Shown in pieces: positions 2,210 to 63,552 of a stretch of 64,000 nucleotides of DNA. Origin of the DNA: a virus. The position numbers and the translations under genes were made by a program. The notes beneath the pieces were generated by a model, which was not told the origin of the DNA, did not search any database, and saw only the letters and a list, made by a program, of their open reading frames with translations. The DNA lies in IMG/VR virus record IMGVR_UViG_3300037222_000038, positions 1 through 64,000 of that record. One strand, 5' to 3'. Numbering within the stretch: position 1 is the stretch's first letter; the number at the start of each line of letters is the position of its first letter.

Positions 2210-2218
2210 ATTTCTCTA

Positions 2219-2256
2219 TTGACTAGACAAAAACGCTGCGTTAGTATTCGTCGTCA
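2219..2256 (+). promoter_or_regulatory. Leaderless promoter with ACGCTGCGT operator
   Basis: -35 TTGACT (2219-2224), 17-bp spacer, -10 TAGTAT (2242-2247), ATG at 2256. ACGCTGCGT (2233-2241) abuts the -10 and matches the operator at 1986-1994 except for the centre base. Spacing to the ATG implies a leaderless or nearly leaderless message. Confidence 0.7.
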
Positions 2257-2417
2257 TGAAAACCACCGTGTATGTTTACTTTCTGATTGATCCGAGGGAC
2301 AGAGTTCCTTGTTATGTCGGCCTTTCAAAAGCTCCTAAGCGCAGGCTCAGAGACCACATAAATAAGCCTACTAATCACCGCGTAGCTGGTTGGGTAAACG
2401 AATTGCGTGTGGGGTGA
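2256..2417 (+). CDS. Short GIY-YIG-like protein
   Basis: A 53-residue protein, begun by a leaderless promoter. Its N-terminal half (VYVYFLIDPRDRVPCYVGLS, then KAPKRRLRDH) fits the start of a GIY-YIG nuclease fold: hydrophobic strand, YVG strand, conserved Arg and His. The C-terminal half with the catalytic Glu of full-length enzymes is missing. It may be a remnant or a nuclease-dead binding protein. Confidence 0.55.
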   Translation: MKTTVYVYFLIDPRDRVPCYVGLSKAPKRRLRDHINKPTNHRVAGWVNELRVG

Positions 2418-2934: not shown

Positions 2935-3004
2935 TCGTCAACTAATGGTGACGTGGCTCCACGGCAGGGACGTGATGACACCCCGATTACGAGAGGCGTT
3001 AGTG

Positions 3005-3196
3005 ATGCTCTGTTTAACTCGCAAAATTGGAGAGCGGATTGTTCTTGACGGGAACATCGTCGTGACCGTGCTGGAGATTTCACGCGGCCATGTGAGGCTC
3101 GGGCTATCTGCACCACGGCAGGTTTCAATCGAGCGGGAAGAACACAGACACGCGACGGAGCGACTTCGCGCCACGGACTCGGCGCTTTTGAATTGA
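3005..3196 (+). CDS. csrA: CsrA-family translational regulator
   Basis: A 63-residue protein matching CsrA along its length: MLCLTRKIGERIVL at the N-terminus, a central strand VTVLEI, then VRLGLSAPRQVSIEREE. CsrA dimers bind GGA motifs in mRNA leaders to block or stabilise messages. I take the ATG at 3005 because CsrA proteins begin MLxLTRK; an in-frame ATG at 2945 would add 20 residues. The leader contains GGGA near the start, compatible with self-control. Confidence 0.9.
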   Translation: MLCLTRKIGERIVLDGNIVVTVLEISRGHVRLGLSAPRQVSIEREEHRHATERLRATDSALLN

Positions 3197-3266: not shown

Positions 3267-3359
3267 GTGAATCCCCGTCGTTCGCGCCAGCATCCAAGTA
3301 GCTCATTCCGGCCCGAGTGAGCACTGCTGCGATTGCTGGCGCGAACGATTGGGATTCAT
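3267..3359 (+). other. Long inverted repeat / structured RNA candidate
   Basis: A 24-base arm at 3269-3292 (GAATCCCCGTCG…GCCAGCA) pairs with 3334-3357 with only two G·T wobbles. An inner hairpin GCTCATTC/GAGTGAGC caps it. It lies between csrA and the next gene and has no T run, so it is not a simple terminator. It could be a leader or processing element, or a small RNA. Confidence 0.6.
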
Positions 3360-3690: not shown

Positions 3691-4187
3691 TGTCTTGGCC
3701 GAACTATCAGGAGACCGTGACGGTTGCGGACGTGCTCGACTCCGGCGCGTGCTATTCTGGCGTCACGGCATGGGTCGTCGCGAATGACGGCCAGATAGCG
3801 GGACACGTCACGGAACATCTTGACAACAAGTACATCGCAGGCGCAGCCTGCGCGTCCGGTTCCGGTTCCGGTGACGGTTACGGTTCCGGTTCCGGTTACG
3901 GTGACGGTTACGGTTCCGGTTCCGGTTCCGGTTCCGGTGACGGTTACGGTTCCGGTGACGGTTTCGGTTACGGTGACGGTTCCGGTGACGGTTTCGGTTT
4001 CGGTTCCGGTGACGGTTACGGTTACGGTTACGGTTCCGGTGACGGTTTCGGTTCCGGTGACGGTTTCGGTTACGGTTCCGGTTCCGGTTACGGTTTCGGT
4101 TCCGGTGACGGTTTCGGTTACGGTTACGGTTCCGGTTCCGGTTCCGGTTACGGTTACGGTTCCGGCGACGGCTACGGCGAAAGCTAA
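3690..4187 (+). CDS. Gly-X (X = S/D/Y/F) repeat protein, complete copy
   Basis: A 165-residue protein. Residues 1-54 form an N-terminal domain (NYQETVTVADVLDSGACYSG); the rest is Gly-X dipeptides with X limited to Ser, Asp, Tyr or Phe. The tract ends with a few GGC codons and Glu-Ser. Tyr/Asp/Gly composition suggests a disordered, possibly self-associating chain. It is a full-length paralogue of the truncated gene at the left edge. No catalytic motif. Confidence 0.75.
   Translation: MSWPNYQETVTVADVLDSGACYSGVTAWVVANDGQIAGHVTEHLDNKYIAGAACASGSGSGDGYGSGSGYGDGYGSGSGSGSGDGYGSGDGFGYGDGSGDGFGFGSGDGYGYGYGSGDGFGSGDGFGYGSGSGYGFGSGDGFGYGYGSGSGSGYGYGSGDGYGES
3855..4178 (+). repeat. Hexanucleotide GGT-NNC tract, copy 2
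   Basis: The same four hexamers as copy 1 (GGTTCC, GGTGAC, GGTTAC, GGTTTC) in a different order and number, while the flank is almost identical between copies. The tract therefore changes faster than its flank. The last units switch to GGC. Confidence 0.9.
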
Positions 4188-52668: not shown

Positions 52669-52779
52669 TCCGCGTTCCTGAAACGAAAAGAGGTCAACAG
52701 CGACTGCTGCGGACCTTCTCGAAAAGGAACGCTGTGTTCGAGCACGCCGGGGGCATGACTCCCGGTTGCATCCTGTCTC

Positions 52780-52805
52780 AAAAATCAACAGCAATCGCTG
52801 TTGAC
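52780..52805 (-). terminator. Rho-independent terminator (minus strand)
   Basis: On the minus strand TCAACAGC-GATT-GCTGTTGA is followed by TTTTT. It ends transcripts of the small gene at 52817. A related arm, GTCAACAGCGACTGCTG, lies downstream at 52693-52709 and could pair with the terminator arm in longer RNAs. Confidence 0.75.
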
Positions 52806-52816
52806 CCCGTTAATCT

Positions 52817-52972
52817 TTAACGTTTACCCGACTTCAATTGATTCTTCGGCGGCTTGCCAGTTTTCAATGCCTCGCCCGTGACGGCCTGTGCGATCTTGGC
52901 AGCGGACTCTTCCGAGTGCCCCTGTGCCTTGAGATTGGCGAAGGTCTTGTGGACGTGGCTGTTTTTTGGCAT
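52817..52972 (-). CDS. Small phage protein (AAKIA…TGK type)
   Basis: A 51-residue protein (MPKNSHVHKTFANLKAQGHS, then EESAAKIAQAVTGEAL). The KxxGHSEESAAKIA…TGxALxTGK pattern occurs in small basic phage proteins of unknown role. It has its own promoter, a long leader and a terminator, so it is a stand-alone late-region unit. Confidence 0.65.
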   Translation of the reverse strand: MPKNSHVHKTFANLKAQGHSEESAAKIAQAVTGEALKTGKPPKNQLKSGKR

Positions 52973-53186: not shown

Positions 53187-53477
53187 TCAGTTCTCGACAA
53201 CGGCAATCACGTCGGATTCTCGGATGACAACGATGCCATCTTCGACTTCCATTGCGGTGTAATCGTTGAACAAAATCTCGTTCCCCTTGCGTACTTGCAT
53301 GGAGATTCTATTGTCGCCGCCAAGAGAATCACATTGCCGTCCAGGTCCACTGGCGATTACAAGACCGCGAGTGCATTTCTCGCGAGTTCCGTCAGGCAGA
53401 ACGATACCTCCCTTGGTGACTTTGTTCGCTTCAATAAGTTCGACAACGAGATGGTCTTCTGTCGGCTTCAGCTTCAT
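53187..53477 (-). CDS. groES: GroES-like co-chaperonin
   Basis: A 96-residue protein matching GroES end to end: MKLKPTEDHLVVELIEANKV, mobile loop KGGIVLPDG, GLVIASGPGRQ, a central VRKGNEILFNDYTAMEVEDG and VVIRESDVIAVVE. The IVL in the loop binds GroEL. Phage co-chaperonins replace host GroES to fold capsid protein, as T4 gp31 does. Position in the capsid cluster fits. No phage GroEL is present. Confidence 0.9.
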   Translation of the reverse strand: MKLKPTEDHLVVELIEANKVTKGGIVLPDGTREKCTRGLVIASGPGRQCDSLGGDNRISMQVRKGNEILFNDYTAMEVEDGIVVIRESDVIAVVEN

Positions 53478-55967: not shown

Positions 55968-57926
55968 CTAAACTTCCACGATTTCTTCGTGTTTACGCTG
56001 CTGCGACTCAAGCGGATCCCAATACCGCAACGTCTCTGTCCGCTGTCCCAGATATTGTTGCCGACGCCACTCGAAACCGCCATACGGAGCTTCTTCTTCC
56101 GGTGTTTTGGAGGACACAAACTCCGGTTCGCTGTGAATTGCAAACCACGCGGCCCCCATCGCAATGGCGCAGTCACCGTGCGACTTTTCCGGCGCATCAG
56201 CACGCCCGGCACCGACCAGAGGGTGCTTCAAGTCGCCATTCGAGTTGATGTAGTACCGTTCGCACTCGGCAATCGCCCGTTTCGATCGCGGCGTGAACTT
56301 GTCGCGCGATATTCCGTGCTGCAACTCCCCTAAAAGCTGTTGTCCACCGTCTTTATTGTCGTATCCGACCCGGTGACCCATCATTTGCCGCACGTCGTCG
56401 CGCGAGGCGGGTCGATTCCAGAGATTCGGGTACTGCAATTCGAGGATTTTGGCCAGAAACCGACTCCCGACACCAGTAATTTCAGGCAGCATGATCGCCC
56501 GGTTGAAAACACGACCGATTTGCGAGCAAAACACCGCAAAATCTTCCGGTTCGATGCGATTGTAGGCGTATTCCGCGACTTGGCGACTCATGCGACGGTC
56601 GATTATCGAAAAACTGGAGCAGGATGAGTACGATCCCCCCTTTCCGCCGGCGATATCGACGCCCATCGAGTACATTCGCCCCTCCGGAACCAGCAAAATG
56701 CCGTGTTCGTCGATCTTCAACTCCGATCCCGGCTCGATCCACACGTCAATCGGGTTGTCGCGGTCTGTTCTACGCAGTTCTGCGATCCATTCCCGGCTGA
56801 TTTTCGTCAATTCGAGGCGTTCCGTGGGCTCTTTGCAGAGTGCCTGAGCCTTGAAGATGCACGACGAATGAAAGAATCGCGACGTGGCACCCCCGAAGTT
56901 CATCCCCAACTCGGCGGCGATCGACTGTTCGGTCGCTCCGGCCCGCTTGCACTCATAGTCGTAGTAGGGGGAACGTGTCTGACCATCGCGCACGAACTTG
57001 TAATTGGCCGGAAACTGGTATTCCTTGTCCACAATCTCGATGGAGTTGCCATCCGAGCGGTAGAGGCCGGCCGCTTTGTCTTTGTCGAGCCACCACGGCC
57101 ACTCGAATCGCACAATGTCGGAGTTCTGGTCCTCGCACACGTCGTAGAACATGCCCGCCTGGCCGCGGTCGCGGTTCGGTGTCGAGATCAGAATGCGGCA
57201 GTGCGTGATGTGCTGCAATGAGTCCATCGCCGCATTGTCAGAGATCGGAGGCCATGCGTGCGCTTCGTCGCCGAAGAACGCTTTCTTGCGGCCACCGCGA
57301 GCCATGTTTCCTGTGCAGGCATACCCGGTGATCGACGATCCGTTGTCACGGTTCAGAATCGTGTGGTGCGTCCTGTTGCGGTCGCGCTGCGGGCGCAGGA
57401 ACTCCGGCAGATGGTCGTCGATGAAGTCCATCTTGGCTAAGAGGGAGTCGGGATCGTCTGGGCTGTCAACGGAGTCTTCGTCTTTCGACACGACGCCAAA
57501 GTGCGAGTGCGCGTGAAACCGCCAATCCCAGTCGAACAGGTACAGCACCATCCACGTGGCACCCATTTCACGGGACTTCTTAGCCACCATATCCTTCTTG
57601 CCAAGGTTTTTCTGCATCGTCAGGAAGGCTTCTTCCTGATAATCACGCGGCAGGAAAGGAATCTCTTTGGCTGATCCGAAGTTGCGGGTATCCTGCCATT
57701 GGGCGGTATTACGCGGTTCGAGAAGCCACCCAAAAACGGAGATGTAGAACAGCAGATCCCGCGAGCAGATGATCCACAACTCTTCGGCAATCTCTGGATC
57801 GGACCACGCTTTGTCGAGGCACCACTTGCGGAACTCGACGTTTTCCCACGGGTCTTTAGGAACCAGAGTTCTATAAAACCAGTCCGTAGGTCCGAGCGGG
57901 CAGTGATGGCGGTCAAGCAGTTTCAA
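55968..57926 (-). CDS. terL: Terminase large subunit
   Basis: A 652-residue protein. ATPase: deviant Walker A KKSREMGATW (116-125), Walker B AFFGDE (216-221), motif C LISTPN (246-251). Nuclease: MGVDIAGG with Asp424, Glu482 (PEITG) and Asp584 (SHGDCAIA). It cuts concatemeric DNA and pumps it through the portal. Complete, with no obvious lesion. Confidence 0.92.
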   Translation of the reverse strand: MKLLDRHHCPLGPTDWFYRTLVPKDPWENVEFRKWCLDKAWSDPEIAEELWIICSRDLLFYISVFGWLLEPRNTAQWQDTRNFGSAKEIPFLPRDYQEEAFLTMQKNLGKKDMVAKKSREMGATWMVLYLFDWDWRFHAHSHFGVVSKDEDSVDSPDDPDSLLAKMDFIDDHLPEFLRPQRDRNRTHHTILNRDNGSSITGYACTGNMARGGRKKAFFGDEAHAWPPISDNAAMDSLQHITHCRILISTPNRDRGQAGMFYDVCEDQNSDIVRFEWPWWLDKDKAAGLYRSDGNSIEIVDKEYQFPANYKFVRDGQTRSPYYDYECKRAGATEQSIAAELGMNFGGATSRFFHSSCIFKAQALCKEPTERLELTKISREWIAELRRTDRDNPIDVWIEPGSELKIDEHGILLVPEGRMYSMGVDIAGGKGGSYSSCSSFSIIDRRMSRQVAEYAYNRIEPEDFAVFCSQIGRVFNRAIMLPEITGVGSRFLAKILELQYPNLWNRPASRDDVRQMMGHRVGYDNKDGGQQLLGELQHGISRDKFTPRSKRAIAECERYYINSNGDLKHPLVGAGRADAPEKSHGDCAIAMGAAWFAIHSEPEFVSSKTPEEEAPYGGFEWRRQQYLGQRTETLRYWDPLESQQRKHEEIVEV

Positions 57927-61904: not shown

Positions 61905-62116
61905 CGGATTGGATCGAAGACGCAGCCGACAGAATCGAAGACGTACGGAAATTCGACAGCGATATTGGATTCGACAGGGTAAACAAGGAGCGCGTGGCCC
62001 GGATCATCCGCGAGGCGTACCAGAAGCACCAGCAATCTCAACTGGCCAGCGCCGCCCCGGATAACACACGCTGCCTCAAGTACATTCCCGGAGGTCTGAC
62101 TGTCAGAAACGCGTAA
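61901..62116 (+). CDS. Small hypothetical protein
   Basis: A 71-residue protein from GTG overlapping the protease stop. Acidic start (MTDWIEDAADRIEDVRKFDS), then a helix. No family recognised. Confidence 0.5.
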   Translation: MTDWIEDAADRIEDVRKFDSDIGFDRVNKERVARIIREAYQKHQQSQLASAAPDNTRCLKYIPGGLTVRNA

Positions 62117-62499
62117 TGCCCACGATCAAACAGGCAGTCGCCGACCGAATCCGGCAAGTCGAACAGAACCTGAAAATTCACATGGCGATGATGCACCTCG
62201 CCGCAGGACGAACGACCCCAGAAGCCATCGCCGAATACGAGTCCCAGATGAAGAAGAAGCGCCAAGCCGAAGAGGCCCGCCTCGCCGCCATCGAAGCCGC
62301 CAAGACACCGGCACAACGCCTCAAGGAGAAGCAGGCCGCTTGCGACCACGAGTTCAGAGACGGCAACGCGCGATCCGTCTGCCACATCTGCAAACTGAGC
62401 GTGCCAAAGATATTTGCGGCCGGATACAACATGGGACACAATGTCGGCTACGACGCCGGCTATCAGGAACGCGGTCAACACGACTCTGACGAGGAATAA
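62116..62499 (+). CDS. Coiled-coil protein with zinc-like site
   Basis: A 127-residue protein. Long helix (RTTPEAIAEYESQMKKKRQA…) and a C-terminal CDHEFRDGNARSVCHIC metal-site pattern. Last clear gene of the rightward operon. Confidence 0.55.
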   Translation: MPTIKQAVADRIRQVEQNLKIHMAMMHLAAGRTTPEAIAEYESQMKKKRQAEEARLAAIEAAKTPAQRLKEKQAACDHEFRDGNARSVCHICKLSVPKIFAAGYNMGHNVGYDAGYQERGQHDSDEE

Positions 62500-62502
62500 G
62501 CC

Positions 62503-62577
62503 ATGCCCATCGGCGTGCCCTCTGGCGGGCTATACTGGGGACGCCGCAAGTTCGAATCCTGCCGGGATTGCTCTTGA
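62503..62577 (+). CDS. Possible micropeptide
   Basis: A 24-residue ORF (MPIGVPSGGLYWGRRKFESC…) with GAGGA 7 bases upstream. The same DNA resembles a tRNA T-arm (GCAAGTTCGAATCCTGC), but no full tRNA is present. Its stop lies in the -35 of the next promoter. Confidence 0.35.
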   Translation: MPIGVPSGGLYWGRRKFESCRDCS

Positions 62578-62602
62578 CACACGACGGGCGGGACTCAATA
62601 AT
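62574..62602 (+). promoter_or_regulatory. Strong promoter of structured RNA
   Basis: Consensus -35 TTGACA (62574-62579), 17-bp spacer, -10 AATAAT (62597-62602). The predicted start falls at about 62609, exactly the first base of the RNA's outer stem. Confidence 0.75.
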
Positions 62603-62608
62603 TCGACT

Positions 62609-62730
62609 GGCGAGACAGTCAGTTGATAAGGATAGAAGCCCCGTAGGGGGCGATGGAGTGTCGAAAGACACACGGCTCTGAATCAACTGACTGGCCGTCG
62701 CCACCGTCGATCCCTACGGGGTTTCTACTT
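62609..62730 (+). ncRNA. Candidate structured RNA with pseudoknot
   Basis: Stems: GGCGA (62609-62613)/TCGCC (62698-62702); CAGTCAGTTGAT (62616-62627)/ATCAACTGACTG (62682-62693), perfect; a GTGTC-GAAA-GACAC tetraloop hairpin (62658-62671). A 16-bp stem (62633-62648 with 62712-62727, one G·T) has its 5' arm inside the second stem and its 3' arm outside, making a pseudoknot. No protein explains it. Class not recognised. Confidence 0.7.
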
Positions 62731-63018
62731 TGAACGGAGTCACTGCCTCCCAGAACGCAAGATGCGTCCCGCCCCCGGCAATCCATGCTTTCGCCGGCCA
62801 CAGCCCATGTCAGGCACACCTCAAAGCAGCATGGAGTAACCCTCGCAGGAGAAACCCCTGTTGGCCTCGGGCGATTGAAACAACATCGCCGACAAGCCGT
62901 GACGACTCGGTAGCCACCCCATGTCACAGCGACCGCCAGGCACGCGAGAACGCTGGTAGCGACGTGCCCCATCTCGCCAATGGATCAGTGCCCCGCCGGG
63001 TAATATCCACCCAGCACC
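62731..63018 (+). other. Non-coding stretch with hairpins
   Basis: No convincing gene. Visible hairpins include GGCGAT-N9-ATCGCC near 62870 and GGCACG (62939-62944)/CGTGCC (62963-62968) with inner CGCT-GGT-AGCG. It may be further RNA or regulatory DNA downstream of the structured RNA. Confidence 0.4.
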
Positions 63019-63168
63019 ATGCAGCAACAAACGACCGTCGTGAGGAATCTGACAGAGACTGCGAACGACGCTAAACAACTCGCGGGGAGAGTCACGTTTC
63101 AAGATCGCGCTTCGTCACACAAGCCACAGTACGTCGTCTTCATGATCGTCGTAAATCAGGTCCAGTAA
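63019..63168 (+). CDS. Possible small protein
   Basis: A 49-residue ORF (MQQQTTVVRNLTETANDAKQ…YVVFMIVVNQVQ) with protein-like hydrophobic and charged pattern but no clear ribosome site. Its end shares GGTCCAGTAACC with the end of the next gene (63543-63554). Confidence 0.4.
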   Translation: MQQQTTVVRNLTETANDAKQLAGRVTFQDRASSHKPQYVVFMIVVNQVQ

Positions 63169-63237
63169 CCACCATTTCACCACAAAAACCCCGTACGGTC
63201 AGTCCGACATTCTACAGCCAGAAAGCGAGAATTCCCC

Positions 63238-63552
63238 ATGAAATTCGCCGTCCGCGTCATCGAACCACACGAGACATACACCAACCTCGGCCGTGATCTT
63301 CCGCACTTTAGCGGACCCACAAGCCACGCCACGGTTTACGTCGAGGCTGACATCATCAAGATTGGAACAAACAGCATGGCCGGGGCCGGATGCCTCATCC
63401 TAATCAAAGCCAAACAGGGGAGCCACGAAGAGCAGACCGTCGCTGTATTCTCTCCGGGTTTTTGGTGCTACTGGACCATCGTGGAGCAACCACACATGCC
63501 GGAAGATCGAAGTAAAGCCAAATCTCACAAGAATCAAGAGCGGGTCCAGTAA
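63238..63552 (+). CDS. Hypothetical protein
   Basis: A 104-residue protein. Beta-rich (KFAVRVIEPHETYTNLGRDL; TVAVFSPGFWCYWTIVEQPH). The end ERVQ-stop shares a 12-base DNA sequence with the end of the 63019 ORF. No family recognised. Confidence 0.55.
   Translation: MKFAVRVIEPHETYTNLGRDLPHFSGPTSHATVYVEADIIKIGTNSMAGAGCLILIKAKQGSHEEQTVAVFSPGFWCYWTIVEQPHMPEDRSKAKSHKNQERVQ

Follow-up and report, generated by a model that had tools for sequence, protein, structure and literature searches.

The 740-base gap between the predicted genes at 62116-62499 and 63238-63552 of a virus record raises the question of what kind of molecule it specifies, if any, and what such a molecule would do. A sequence-only reading had proposed that the gap houses a strongly promoted pseudoknot RNA lacking a coding frame. 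The locus was analysed within the whole available stretch of DNA, referred to below as the window, which covers 64,000 bases out of the 68,896-base (68.9-kb) record. The structured RNA element in this gap is real, statistically strong and linked to a promoter, as documented by its complementarities, its excess over shuffled sequences, its strand preference, its promoter match and the absence of coding usage. It is ordinary in kind, being a candidate phage regulatory RNA, and matches no known class; in the absence of relatives, it does not yet qualify as a class of its own.

Genomic setting and likely host

The genome is probably that of a planctomycete phage and its host probably a planctomycete bacterium, because the nearest relative of its terminase (gene at 55968-57926; PHROG terminase match) is located on a contig of a Bythopirellula metagenome-assembled genome (MAG), with 42% identity. 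The next relatives were found mainly in planctomycete MAGs, and those in IMG/VR reached 39% identity at most. The phage also encodes CsrA (2945-3196; PF02599, E 9e-19), the chaperonin Cpn10/GroES (53187-53477, minus strand; E 8.5e-18) and a small serine recombinase. A CsrA-like stretch with 59% identity was present in the terminase-relative locus L074, and two planctomycete MAGs holding terminase relatives yielded 10 and 4 CsrA matches, respectively. An open reading frame at 3750-4184 (plus strand) specifies a low-complexity Gly/Ser/Tyr/Asp repeat (GSGDGYGSG...). The Bythopirellula contig with the nearest terminase (L131) additionally carries a tRNA (2215-2309, minus strand) with a tRNA-Ser-like body and a long variable arm, whose GAU anticodon led to its being called tRNA-Ile, so that it may be a miscoding tRNA. 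On another terminase-relative viral contig (L064), a Type-P5 twister ribozyme (Rfam RF02684; 7635-7699, minus strand) was detected about 1 kb away from a stretch resembling a tRNA 3' end.

Promoter and non-coding gap

The coordinates of all features are listed in the table below. Promoter sites matching the consensus at 11/12 positions occur three times in the 64 kb, compared to a mean of 0.27 expected from shuffled sequences. At the usual 7-nt offset, the predicted start site (+1) falls on G62609, with which the G residues of the closing stem begin, so that it was fair to describe the promoter as starting right at the first stem. The description "strongly promoted" is derived from the near-consensus match only. 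No frame over positions 62500-63000 had the codon usage of the confidently predicted genes, in line with the absence of a coding frame noted earlier. A longer RNA of 600 nt was rejected, the remainder of the gap being without structure.

Table. Predicted features of the structured element and its surroundings (positions in the window).
Feature	Position	Strand	Basis
Sigma70-type promoter TTGACA-17-AATAAT, predicted +1 at ~62609	62574-62602	+	11/12 matches
Structured RNA core, ~124 nt from +1	62604-62732	+	MFE -67.5, z -7.38; signal confined here
Closing stem, 5' strand UGGCGA	62608-62613	+	Sequence, folding
Stem A, 5' strand CAGUCAGUUGAU	62616-62627	+	12/12 complementary
Linker L1 AAGGA, joining stems A and B; ANGGA (CsrA-type) motif	62628-62632	+	Motif scan
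Stem B, 5' strand UAGAAGCCCCGUAGGG	62633-62648	+	Complementarity, folding
AUGGA, second ANGGA motif, in the linker ahead of the GAAA hairpin	62653-62657	+	Motif scan
Hairpin GUGUC-GAAA-GACAC	62658-62671	+	Sequence, folding
Stem A, 3' strand (A') AUCAACUGACUG	62682-62693	+	12/12 complementary
Closing stem, 3' strand UCGCCA	62698-62703	+	Sequence, folding
Stem B, 3' strand (B') CCCUACGGGGUUUCUA	62712-62727	+	Complementarity
U-rich tail UUUCUACUUU following the GC-rich portion of stem B; resembles a weak intrinsic terminator	62722-62731	+	
Largely non-coding stretch lacking structure, as far as the next clear gene (63238-63552)	62740-63237	+	Folding scan, codon usage

Architecture of the element

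In 5' to 3' direction, the element consists of the closing stem, stem A, AAGGA, stem B, GGCGAUGGA, the GAAA hairpin, ACGGCUCUGA, A', the second strand of the closing stem, B' and CUUUG. Stems A and B are truly interleaved (strand order A, B, A', B'), so the element fits the pseudoknot arrangement proposed by the sequence-only reading, with its GAAA hairpin and closing stem. Counted from +1, the closing stem comprises GGCGA (62609-62613) and UCGCC (62698-62702). The claim of perfect 12-bp and 16-bp stems holds for stem A; stem B has 16 bp including one G-U, or 17 bp with a terminal G-U, and is therefore perfect only in plus-strand RNA. The 5' strand of stem B may alternatively form a local hairpin, GCCCC-GUAG-GGGGC (62638-62651). 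The linkers have lengths of 5 nt, 33 nt (including the hairpin) and 18 or ~10 nt, which would permit side-by-side placement of both helices.

Fold strength and competing folds

None of 200 shuffled sequences folded as well as the core (-67.5 kcal/mol). For positions 62600-62740, the z-score was -6.7 on the plus strand versus -4.0 on the minus strand, the better-folding strand thus being the one on which the flanking genes are read. The signal is local, as neighbouring 120-nt segments scanned in 40-nt steps between 60 and 64 kb were near z = 0. Among the highest-ranking interleaved pairs listed on the two strands of the window, stems A and B had the best summed stacking energy (-57.2 kcal/mol); the best pair in each of ten shuffled 64-kb sequences lay between -42.4 and -49.0 kcal/mol. 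Judged by the energy of its weaker stem alone, the pair is not exceptional, so that it is the combination of A and B that counts.

Structures of comparable strength are found at two other places in the genome, 3230-3375 (plus strand) and 52680-52820 (minus strand). The first contains an intergenic stem-loop (3268-3358; z -7.6) with 25-nt arms that are 92% complementary, flanked by csrA and a DUF6948 gene. The second, with z -7.3 on the coding strand, is a long stem preceding a gene that probably starts near 52671 (minus strand), and the 5' arm of this stem is also able to form a perfect 8-bp local hairpin.

The nested minimum-free-energy (MFE) structure of the core differs from the pseudoknot, and two nested folds compete. 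The first 106 nt alone (62604-62709) adopt a nested form with the closing stem, stem A and two hairpins (-52.5 kcal/mol, z -6.1), whereas addition of the last ~20 nt shifts the MFE structure (-67.5 kcal/mol) to a near-perfect helix of 21 bp around B, accompanied by a 5' hairpin. This rival 5' hairpin requires bases upstream of the predicted +1 and is therefore removed from a transcript starting there. From +1 onward, the nested optimum was -56 to -60 kcal/mol, compared to an estimate of about -66 kcal/mol for the pseudoknot, which was obtained by adding stem A to the B-form and depends on a single assumed pseudoknot penalty of +9.6 kcal/mol. Provided that the promoter is correctly assigned, the pseudoknot is thus the best estimate of the fold, and the energy model suggests that it would be the main state.

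Search for relatives

The Rfam 15 covariance models gave no match in the window, consistent with the earlier assignment to no recognized RNA class. Weaker Rfam matches for the element had E values of 3.7-7.5 at best, far under the gathering scores; a similarity to CRISPR-DR36 (E 6.8) was taken as chance. ARAGORN found no tmRNA or tRNA. A hammerhead ribozyme (CUGANGA ... GAAA core) is likewise not supported, with no CUGANGA at 62604-62740 and no Rfam match.

Searches of phage and plasmid collections with blastn returned only chance-level pieces of ~20-55 nt, and exact and gapped patterns retrieved no homologue from IMG/VR. Three IMG/VR contigs hit by the stem A pattern share this stem only, and none of them matched a covariance model of the element (R1); two of them, L172 and L173, have AT-rich sequence that appears to be coding. 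R1 was built from this one sequence and is therefore weak, so that absence of a match is not proof of absence. The 40 loci of terminase relatives scanned with it, distant and in many cases fragmentary, gave no match, and neither did a set of five records. Among 397 genomes from the order of the Bythopirellula MAG, R1 produced two weak matches that look like chance in coding DNA, and it detected no homologue in 392 genomes of the phylum (planctomycete total ~790). With blastn, the 397 genomes of the order yielded only pieces of 20-42 nt. No relatives were retrieved with neighbouring proteins as bait (62116-62499, the terminase alone or two paralogous small proteins), and the 68.9-kb record holds no second copy. 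As no relative was found, the shape and the job of the element remain predictions.

Outside the element, positions 63033-63088 are 80% identical over 56 nt to positions 5588-5641 of L074 (E ~1e-5; best of 100 shuffles 0.005). The two stretches lie in different reading frames and are similarly far upstream of the terminase, and a hairpin within them seems to change on both sides.

Possible roles of the element

Of the functions suggested by the sequence-only reading (a decoy, packaging or regulatory RNA), the last fared best, with a promoter-linked, non-coding, structured element supported and a leader or small RNA (sRNA) as the most economical interpretation. Our tentative preference is for a promoter-proximal leader whose last helix serves as a weak, conditional terminator or pause site. 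We infer transcription and a leader or attenuator role from the promoter start, the co-directional plus-strand genes predicted downstream, the switch in fold upon addition of the last 20 nt and the presence of UUUCUACUUU after the last helix. The shift of the MFE structure towards the B helix is, as modelled, the behaviour of a co-transcriptional switch. In the proposed sequence of events, transcription from the sigma70-type promoter would begin at the closing stem, and the RNA would fold during its synthesis into a compact element of ~125 nt. The first structures to form would be the closing stem, stem A and both hairpins; B' would emerge later and establish the 16-bp pairing with the B strand held in the loop, which would yield a pseudoknot of the H type into which the GAAA hairpin is inserted. 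With UUUCUACUUU behind its GC-rich part, stem B could then cause weak conditional termination or pausing, and the last helix would set the amount of transcription entering the co-directional downstream genes. The terminator-like site (62709-62723) is weak, with a U-tract of 7/10, and the number of sites of this kind does not exceed expectation (3 found versus 4.5 in shuffles). Against a leader, the first clear downstream gene starts ~500 nt past the element, and another 11/12 promoter (63643) is located between the element and most of the downstream genes.

The HK022 put RNAs are two simple stem-loops. Like these RNAs and the attenuator 5' leaders of phage early operons, the element is a structured RNA placed right after a promoter with co-directional genes downstream; unlike the put RNAs, it fits a pseudoknot with long stems, and no sequence relation is to be expected.

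It is possible, if rather less probable than a leader, that the element is a free trans-acting sRNA of ~125 nt, with its 3' end at the U-rich tail, whose single-stranded linkers bind an mRNA or a protein such as the CsrA of phage or host, in the latter case acting as a decoy or sponge. Its own promoter, compact size and U-rich 3' end would suit an sRNA, but no convincing complementary target was identified, the longest matches elsewhere in the window being 10-13 nt and thus approximately at chance level. As for CsrA, the protein is encoded by the phage itself and has matches in two planctomycete MAGs with terminase relatives; moreover, AAGGA makes up the whole of linker L1 and AUGGA is found in the next linker, each conforming to ANGGA. 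The core contains two such motifs, or three counting to position 62740, but at least three per 137 nt are also found in 2.7% of the plus-strand segments of this length. The decoy role put forward earlier is weakly favoured by the phage CsrA gene and the motifs in both single-stranded linkers, and the motif count at the 2.7% level speaks against it. Known CsrA sponges carry many more sites. The element resembles sponges of the CsrB/RsmZ type in having ANGGA motifs in single-stranded parts and a CsrA gene in the same phage, but it differs from their many GGA hairpins in having only two or three sites and a pseudoknot. A new class of regulatory RNA, in which binding of phage CsrA to the linker sites opens or closes the terminal helix and thereby gates downstream genes or titrates host CsrA, appears improbable.

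An RNase III processing or stability stem within a polycistronic transcript is unlikely. The early mRNA of T7 is cut by RNase III between operon segments, at sites marked by long near-perfect duplexes. The element shares with these stems a long near-perfect intergenic duplex, of 21 bp in the nested MFE structure, and the intergenic duplexes at 3268-3358 (plus strand) and 52680-52820 (minus strand) likewise have the better fold on the strand that carries their flanking genes. Unlike T7-type stems, however, it starts at a promoter of its own and contains an interleaved second stem, neither of which is needed by a processing site.

Still more doubtful is a DNA-level feature such as a recombination or att site, a transposon remnant or an origin hairpin. 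The serine recombinase gene is located ~2 kb upstream, a stretch resembling the 3' half of a tRNA (about 62545-62572) abuts the promoter, and an outer inverted repeat (62586-62597/62763-62774) brackets the element. The strand asymmetry and the G-U pairing nevertheless favour RNA, the element is single-copy in the 68.9-kb record, and no target-site duplication was seen. An integrase-type attachment site was rejected, with no tyrosine integrase found in the genome and the tRNA-like 24-mer absent from all GTDB genome contigs searched. The tRNA-like stretch, taken over 62525-62572, comprises a T-arm (GCAAG-TTCGAAT-CCTGC) followed by CGGGATTG and is possibly a decayed attachment site.

A self-cleaving double-pseudoknot ribozyme of the HDV/theta type, processing the upstream tRNA-like piece, is highly improbable. 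Theta ribozymes are HDV-like and linked to tRNAs of gut phages (PMC10879173), and the element is reminiscent of these RNAs in its strand order (A, B, hairpin, A', B', as in HDV) and in the tRNA-like T-arm just upstream. It differs from them in its stems of 12 and 16 bp, in the lack of an Rfam ribozyme match, and in that a descriptor for P1-P2-P3-P1'-P4-P2' with a short P3 and a catalytic C in J4/2 gave no hits on the plus strand; nor did ARAGORN find a tRNA. The suggested packaging RNA is without support, as nothing resembles pRNA and the element is absent from the 40 searched loci of terminase relatives (distant, often fragments).

Significance

Publications on RNA control in planctomycete phages appear to be scarce, and a limited literature search on such phages found nothing. 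A strongly folded, promoter-linked RNA in a CsrA-encoding phage that probably infects planctomycetes offers a well-defined subject for probing and binding tests at low cost.
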